This document shows positions 29,452 to 30,749 of a stretch of DNA of 64,000 nucleotides, in pieces (position 1 is the stretch's first letter; every line of letters begins with the position of its first letter). Made by a program: the position numbers and the translations under genes. A model generated the notes under the pieces. That model ran no database searches. It saw only the letters and a list, made by a program, of their open reading frames with translations, and was not told the DNA's origin. The stretch is from positions 248,001 to 312,000 of the forward strand of contig NZ_JAHBAY010000004.1 of the NCBI RefSeq assembly GCF_018499875.1. Reading direction: 5' to 3'. Source of the stretch: Kineosporia corallincola. GTDB lineage: Bacteria > Actinomycetota > Actinomycetes > Actinomycetales > Kineosporiaceae.

Positions 29452-29505
29452 ACCACCGGGAGCGGTGGTTCAAAAATAATTCCCGGAAAGCGGCAACCTT
29501 TCGGG
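29452..29505 (+). promoter_or_regulatory. Hairpins and AT-rich segment at the head of the pectate lyase leader
   Basis: ACCACCG-GGAG-CGGTGGT (29452-29469) is a perfect 7-bp palindrome followed by an AT-rich run (TTCAAAAATAATT). A second hairpin, 29482-29505, pairs CCC and GAAAG with CTTTC and GGG around a CGGCAAC loop, with one bulged G. These may be promoter, operator or the start of a structured 5' leader. The 29138-29451 stretch shows no gene or repeat I can support. Confidence 0.4.
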
Positions 29506-29527
29506 CCTCTCGACTGACTTAGGGGCG

Positions 29528-29634
29528 TCAGAAGCGCGGGGCCCGGTGAGGCCTCCCGGCCCATTCAGGGTGGGCCCGGAGGGAAATCAGGCCTATTCAG
29601 GGTAGGCCTGCCTACTCACCGGCCCTGCGTCTGG
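29528..29634 (+). ncRNA. Three-way-junction leader RNA candidate with twin UUCAGGG loops
   Basis: Predicted by eye. P1 pairs 29529-29550 with 29615-29633 (19 bp, a bulged C at 29542 and two bulged bases at 29533-29534). P2 is 29552-29582 (11 bp, one C-C mismatch). P3 is 29588-29610 (8 bp). P2 and P3 both close on the heptaloop UUCAGGG (29564-29570 and 29596-29602), while their stems differ by matched changes (CCCA/TGGG versus CCTA/TAGG). It ends about 60 nt before the pectate lyase start, so it probably lies in its 5' untranslated region. It could instead act on the other strand. It matches no riboswitch class that I recognise. Confidence 0.6.
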
Positions 29635-29650
29635 ATTTTCGTCCAATGCC

Positions 29651-29694
29651 GACTCGAAGCCGAGTCCTGGCAACCCTCCCGGAAAGGGAATCGC
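29651..29694 (+). promoter_or_regulatory. Hairpin and occluded ribosome-binding site before the pectate lyase
   Basis: GACTCG-AAGC-CGAGTC (29651-29666) is a perfect hairpin. Next, CCCT (29674-29677) can pair with AGGG (29085+600, i.e. 29685-29688), or TCCC with GGGA, either of which hides the AAAGGGA ribosome site that lies 5 nt before ATG 29695. This would suit translational control by the upstream fold. Confidence 0.4.
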
Positions 29695-30570
29695 ATGAAA
29701 AGCCCCTCGCGCGGCGGTTTGAAGAGCGCCTTCAGCACGAAACGCCGGGTCTGGACCGGCGTGATCGCCGCGGTCGTCCTGGCGGCCGCCGCCGGTACGG
29801 TTGCCTCGGCTGCGAACAGCAGCTCCTCGTCGACCAGCGCGACGACGGCGAGTTCCTCGTACCCGACCGCGATCCCGACCAAGGCGTCCGCGCTGAGCCT
29901 GACCTGGCCGACCGCGACGGGCACCACCAACCTCACCGCCACCAAGACGGTGAGCAGCTACGACGGTGGCATGAAGCGCGTCCAGGGCTGGGGCGGTAGC
30001 CAGGACGAGGACCAGGACCCGCTGTTCATCGTCAAGGACGGTGGCACGATCCAGAACGTCATCATCGGCAACAAGGCCGGCGACGGGATCCACTGCGAAG
30101 GCACGTGTTTGATCAAGAACGTCTGGTGGGAGGACGTGGGCGAGGACGCCGCCACCCAGAAGGGCAAGGTCTCCGGCCAGGTCATGCAGATCGACGGCGG
30201 CGGCGCGAAGAAGGCCGACGACAAGGTCTTCCAGCAGAACGGCCCCGGCAAGCTGGTCGTGCAGAACTTCGTGATCCAGGACTTCGGCAAGCTGTACCGC
30301 TCCTGCGGTAACTGCTCCACGCAGTACCAGCGCTCGGCCGAGTTCTACAACGTGATTGTCGTCGACCCGGGTAAGTCCCTGGCCGGCATCAACACCAACT
30401 ACAAGGACACCGCCACGTTCAAGTGGATCCGTCTGTACGACGACGACAAGAGCATCTCGATCTGCGACAAGTACACGGGTAACAGCAGTGGCAAGGAGCC
30501 GACCAAGACCGGTTCCGGTGCGGACGGCACCTACTGCAAGTACTCGTCCTCGGACATCACCTACAAGTAA
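29695..30570 (+). CDS. Secreted pectate lyase, polysaccharide lyase family 3
   Basis: Extracellular enzyme of 291 aa that would cleave polygalacturonate by beta-elimination, calcium-dependent. An Arg/Lys-rich N-terminus and hydrophobic stretch (RVWTGVIAAVVLAAAAGTVASA, about 18-40) form the export signal, followed by a Ser/Thr-rich linker. The catalytic part (about 75-291) shows the PL3 right-handed helix motifs IVKDGGTIQNVIIGNKAGDG, GPGKLVVQNFVIQDFGKLYR and SCGNC, with disulphide cysteines. Length fits the family. It is preceded by an unusually long structured leader and followed by a clear terminator, so it is a single-gene unit. It suggests life on plant material. Confidence 0.93.
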   Translation: MKSPSRGGLKSAFSTKRRVWTGVIAAVVLAAAAGTVASAANSSSSSTSATTASSSYPTAIPTKASALSLTWPTATGTTNLTATKTVSSYDGGMKRVQGWGGSQDEDQDPLFIVKDGGTIQNVIIGNKAGDGIHCEGTCLIKNVWWEDVGEDAATQKGKVSGQVMQIDGGGAKKADDKVFQQNGPGKLVVQNFVIQDFGKLYRSCGNCSTQYQRSAEFYNVIVVDPGKSLAGINTNYKDTATFKWIRLYDDDKSISICDKYTGNSSGKEPTKTGSGADGTYCKYSSSDITYK

Positions 30571-30616
30571 TCAGGTGAGAGTCGCTGCCGGACAGCGACA
30601 TTACAGGGGATGACAG

Positions 30617-30656
30617 AGCCGGCCCGGCCCCGCGAGGGGACGGGCCGGCTTTCTCG
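30617..30656 (+). terminator. Rho-independent terminator after the pectate lyase
   Basis: AGCCGGCCCG (30617-30626) pairs with CGGGCCGGCT (30641-30650), followed by TTTCTC. The stem starts 47 bp after the pectate lyase stop. Confidence 0.85.
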
Positions 30657-30749
30657 TGCCCACGGGCGTCCTCTGGAATCGCCGGAACTGCCGCTTCCGC
30701 GCATAGTGGTCCGGGCAACGCCACCGGGCGCGAGGGGAGCTGTCGTATC

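Follow-up and report, generated by a model that had tools for sequence, protein, structure and literature searches.

What kind of element stands in front of the gene for a secreted PL3 pectate lyase in Kineosporia corallincola? The gene (29695..30570 on the plus strand, 291 aa; PF03211, E 3.5e-70) lies in the window, by which we mean the whole 64-kb stretch of DNA that was analysed, and upstream of it, on the same strand, positions 29528-29634 can be folded into a closing stem which carries two hairpins. A preliminary description had drawn these two adjacent hairpins with the same UUCAGGG loop and took the whole for a candidate structured RNA that fits no known riboswitch class. In this work we asked whether the structure is conserved, on which strand and from which start it would be transcribed, and how it might act.

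The fold and its conservation in the genus

The coordinates and the overall drawing, a closing stem around two adjacent UUCAGGG hairpins, agree with the preliminary description. At the predicted 5' end of the RNA lies a conserved, mostly unpaired segment, GGGGCGTCAGAA (29522..29533). The closing stem pairs 29534..29550 with 29615..29630 and encloses hairpin 1 (29552..29582, with an internal mismatch; loop at 29564..29570) and hairpin 2 (29588..29610; loop at 29596..29602), which are joined by a linker of 5 nt. The remaining leader (29631..29694), with a Shine-Dalgarno-like GGAAAGGG at 29681-29688, is poorly conserved. Folding energy was a point on which the proposal could have failed, and here the result was clear: the minimum free energy of 29528-29634 is -70.7 kcal/mol (z -4.97, thus about -5), equalled by none of 200 dinucleotide shuffles, and a larger region of 261 nt gave a z of -4.92. 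When the whole 64-kb window was searched, this was the sole pair of twin hairpins with an identical 7-nt loop, and ten Markov-shuffled windows used as a control yielded 0-1 twin pairs with loops of at least 6.

BLASTN recovered the region in each of the five further genomes of the genus that were examined (G001-G005). Every copy lies immediately ahead of the gene for the orthologous PL3 pectate lyase, once per genome in 6/6 genomes, and the lyases of the other five are 75-84% identical to the window protein. In the 8.2-Mb genome from which the window comes the element is single-copy, neither BLAST nor the covariance model having found a further one. The idea that it might also precede other plant-polymer genes was not borne out, the one copy per genome being found only ahead of the PL3 ortholog. 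The structure, its conservation, the loops and this unique place all come from the comparison of six genomes, two of which (G002 and G005) are near-identical at the element.

The alignment of these six genomes supports 36 pairs, with 93.4% of cells paired and two-sided changes in 11 pairs, and its covariation exceeds all 500 shuffles and every slid control. Two-sided changes were seen in 8 of the 12 pairs of hairpin 1 and in three pairs of hairpin 2 (95.8% paired). We also superimposed the 13 UUCAGGG hairpins in a single alignment, those from one genome being non-independent observations; here 93.8% of cells are paired, 6/8 pairs change on both sides and the covariation again surpasses every shuffle and every slid control. 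The loop columns are invariant (7/7), in contrast to 2/16 stem columns (Fisher p 0.00015). The earlier proposal that structure and loop sequence both matter is therefore upheld, UUCAGGG standing on covarying stems before the PL3 gene in 6/6 genomes. The closing stem behaves differently: 97.9% of its cells are paired, and five of its pairs vary through one-sided G-U changes. It was first described as a 19-bp stem; the stem itself is present, but it has 16 conserved pairs, and the CAG/CTG extension is optional and occurs in only two genomes. In the 5' segment 29522-29533, CGTCAGAAG is invariant in the six genomes, even though just two of them retain the 3' partner with which it pairs. A separate observation concerns the pair which closes the loop: it is A-U in both window hairpins (29564-29602) and G-C in 11/11 hairpins of the other genomes. 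This shared pair suggests a concerted change or a local duplication, and it is possible that the two window hairpins reflect concerted evolution of copies.

How far does the element extend beyond the genus? When 58 genomes were searched by BLASTN, all that appeared outside it were short matches attributable to chance; a family-level search with the covariance model detected no homologue beyond it, and the same model, run with stricter filters and reduced sensitivity on 395 genomes of the class, had no match but the copy in the window. With the invariant 24-nt 5' block, other genomes gave only three-mismatch matches, not clearly above a reversed-pattern control, and such hairpins were absent upstream of 29 PL3 loci of other actinobacteria. 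We also looked for two spaced UUCAGGG motifs in about 85,000 species genomes. Among the matches listed, the flanks were unpaired in the majority, and the loci with the best pairing resembled tandem sequence repeats; the covariance model, applied to 80 of these loci, reached a best E of 0.005. A search of actinobacteria for covarying relatives, as first proposed, thus succeeded within the genus, where covarying UUCAGGG copies precede PL3, and found none in the other genomes searched. The preliminary view that no known class fits was also borne out, because Rfam 15 gave 0 matches in the window at the gathering threshold and none that was credible at a relaxed threshold. The likeness to Rhodo-rpoB is weak (15.8 bits, E 4, against a gathering score of 33.6) and on the wrong strand. 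As judged from the comparison of sequences, 29528-29634 is very probably a conserved sense-strand RNA element; so read, it is a structured 5' leader RNA of the pectate lyase mRNA with a repeated and invariant loop, restricted to the genus as far as these searches reach.

Strand, predicted promoter and transcript start

The minus strand of 29528-29634 folds comparably (z -5.7), so the strand is not decidable from folding energy alone. The non-Watson-Crick cells of the alignment are more telling. Twelve of them are G-U on the plus strand, compared with 3 A-C cells, which would be G-U on the minus strand. This count favours the sense strand, as do the predicted promoter and the gene, which both lie on the plus strand, and an RNA on this strand can be regarded as well supported by the sequences. 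The predicted promoter is of the ECF type and occupies 29492..29520 on the plus strand, with GGCAACC (29492-29498) as its -35 box, a 16-nt spacer and TGACTT (29515-29520) as its -10 box. In 6/6 genomes the promoter-like site consists of GGCAACCTTTCGG followed by 17 nt between the end of GGCAACC and GACT, and in all six the closing stem begins 18-19 nt past the start of GACT. Since the promoter-like site ends just before the element, the latter is probably the 5' terminus of the mRNA. From this predicted promoter we infer the start, which would probably fall at about 29524-29529. A 5'-terminal place behind a shared promoter favours a leader which acts in cis. Beyond the other end of the gene, just past the lyase stop codon, a 26-nt inverted repeat (30606-30661) is a possible terminator.

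The same GGCAACC-N17-GACT pattern also precedes the gene for a SigE-family ECF sigma factor in G000 (the window genome), G002 and G005; the protein of G000 matches TIGR02983 with 159.5 bits, compared with a cut-off of 141.6. It was found as well upstream of a second PL3 gene of G000 and of secreted proteins with lectin-like domains in G002 and G005. In total there are 21 matches in the six genomes and 2 for the reversed control, some of the 21 probably being chance occurrences within genes. Listed targets of Streptomyces sigma-E share this geometry, e.g. hrdD with GGCAACC-N16-CGTCTT (PMC6767563). A motif GGCAACCTTT...NGACT (29492-29520 in the window; L282, L287, L283, L288, L280, L293) is common to the window PL3 gene, the second PL3 gene, the secreted lectin-domain proteins and the SigE-family sigma gene, which is followed by a possible anti-sigma gene, and the genes sharing it are candidates for a pectin ECF regulon. 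We also observed GGCAACC-N16-CGACT/CGACC upstream of PL3 genes in other actinobacterial families (L242, L243, L244, L254, L258, L261). This occurrence suggests that the promoter may predate the RNA leader.

Two other leaders in this group of genes deserve mention. Between the ECF-like promoter and the second PL3 gene (G000:C15:10588-11394; L282) there is a strong G+C-rich hairpin with TTTTTCTT after it, about 165-205 nt past GGCAACC, which is a candidate for attenuation or for a small RNA made from this promoter. The leader of the ECF sigma gene mRNA (L287, L288, L280) opens with a long inverted repeat, which reads CGTACGG...CCTTTCGTACG in G000 and has altered forms in G002 and G005.

How the leader may act

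The copies differ in ways that bear on function. They carry two or three UUCAGGG hairpins (L003 has three, while L007 has two and one hairpin with a different loop), and the loop-to-loop spacing in the six genomes ranges over 32-39 nt. The three-way junction of the preliminary description is present in the window copy, but it is not an essential shape, since the junction is four-way in 2/6 genomes. The unpaired letters kept across the genus are those of the loops and the 5' tail; the junction linkers differ, and the stretch from the stem to the start codon (59-84 nt) is unalignable. A hairpin number, spacing and junction type that vary in this way disfavour a rigid ligand pocket and suggest repeated, modular docking sites. 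We therefore lean, with moderate confidence, towards a cis-acting 5' leader whose loops are read by a trans-acting factor, and this factor, probably a protein, would set how stable the lyase mRNA is or how well it is translated. According to this model, the mRNA would be made from the predicted ECF-sigma promoter, with the element as its 5' end on the sense strand. The conserved stem would then display two or three independent hairpins, and each UUCAGGG loop would be a place at which one trans-acting partner docks. This partner would most likely be an RNA-binding protein, multivalent or dimeric, and its binding would alter the stability or translation of the message. The leader part of this explanation is strong, and it is the binding partner and the direction of its effect that we infer.

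Known systems offer partial parallels. ANTAR target RNAs, widespread in actinobacteria, are tandem hairpins with a conserved loop located in leaders; their linkers measure 2-25 nt and their hexanucleotide loops have A1 and G4 (PMC8164766). The element is similar in having two hairpins in a leader, a conserved loop and a 5-nt linker which falls within that range. However, its loops are 7-nt UUCAGGG in 13/13 cases, it has a closing stem and it overlaps neither a terminator nor an RBS; lacking a hexaloop with A1 and G4, it is not a canonical ANTAR target. A conserved peptide was rejected too, as the hairpins fall in different frames and their spacings are non-multiples of 3.

Could the stem simply protect the message? 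In other bacteria, mRNAs last longer when they carry stable 5' hairpins, and our element, very stable in six genomes (plus-strand z -4 to -6), lies at the predicted 5' end, where it could guard against decay with its loops unread by any specific factor. Such a passive stabiliser leaves unexplained why seven loop letters are invariant in 13 hairpins while the stems drift, and why the unpaired CGUCAGAAG is invariant as well. As a full account we consider it unlikely; some of the conservation could nevertheless come from the passive protection that the stable stem gives to the 5' end.

Another possibility is that processing of the leader yields a trans-acting small RNA or sponge, or that the leader itself is one, titrating an RNA-binding protein through its repeated loops. 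CsrB and RsmZ titrate their protein in this way, and identical repeated loops in varying number are a hallmark of sponges. The element shares with these RNAs and with the targets of CsrA/RsmA the presence of several hairpins with the same short loop, and pectate lyases of soft-rot bacteria are known to be under control of the CsrA type. The window genome encodes a CsrA (G000:C8:361948-362100, PF02599) whose gene adjoins that of FliW. This CsrA (L102) has a long proline-rich C-terminal extension, and in this actinobacterium its gene adjoins those of FliW and a flagellar protein. GGA, however, is 100% conserved in CsrA SELEX ligands (PMC7652899) and occurs in 0/13 loops of the element, whose stems are also longer than CsrA prefers, and on the missing GGA a canonical CsrA target was ruled out. 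With no terminator seen in the sequence 3' of the element, and with its constant cis position ahead of one gene, we give the sponge little credence.

We think it improbable to a still greater degree that the leader is a metabolite riboswitch sensing a pectin breakdown product. A structured leader ahead of a catabolic secreted enzyme would suit such a role, and ligand binding had been suggested at the outset; the differing linkers, hairpin spacing, hairpin number and junction type speak against this, as do the unconserved downstream leader and the same lack of a visible terminator, and this evidence makes it unlikely that a rigid pocket is combined here with an expression platform.

Perhaps the loops imitate something else that is read in the cell. 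In the leader of the E. coli thrS mRNA, two anticodon-like 7-nt hairpins form an operator bound by dimeric ThrRS. The present element differs in that it precedes a secreted enzyme and its loop resembles that of tRNA-Leu(CAG); bacterial LeuRS is not known to read the anticodon. UUCAGGG shares 6/7 letters with UUCAGGU, the anticodon loop of the organism's own tRNA-Leu(CAG), on a G-C-closed stem, and with U at position 2 and GG at positions 5-6 it offers the G36G37 read by TrmD (PMC5372744). Recruitment of a tRNA-binding enzyme such as TrmD by anticodon-arm mimicry is nonetheless very doubtful. As many as 3.7% of all 7-mers are equally close to one of the 38 G000 anticodon loops, so the likeness may be due to chance; TrmD requires the D stem as well, and a pectate lyase has no link to leucine. 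A broader form of this idea, in which the hairpins are either anticodon-arm mimics read by TrmD or another anticodon-loop enzyme, or are bound by an undescribed actinobacterial loop-binding regulator, is a long shot, though a less distant one. If the mimics were indeed read, tRNA status would control pectin degradation. Finally, a feature of the DNA itself, such as a set of operator repeats bound by a transcription factor, or the remnant of a mobile element, would suit repeats near a promoter and a minus strand that folds too, but it is scarcely credible given the compensatory stem changes around an asymmetric invariant centre, the G-U asymmetry and the one copy per genome.

A proposed control of the pectate lyase message

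What is known of the control of plant-cell-wall enzymes after transcription comes mainly from the RsmA/CsrA system of soft-rot gammaproteobacteria. A structured pectate lyase leader which is found throughout a genus of high-GC actinobacteria, carries a repeated invariant loop and lies outside the catalogued families points to a separate solution. The cis-acting leader that we favour also offers a way to its partner, for which the UUCAGGG hairpin would be a specific bait. Together, the leader and the shared ECF promoter outline a testable pectin regulon.
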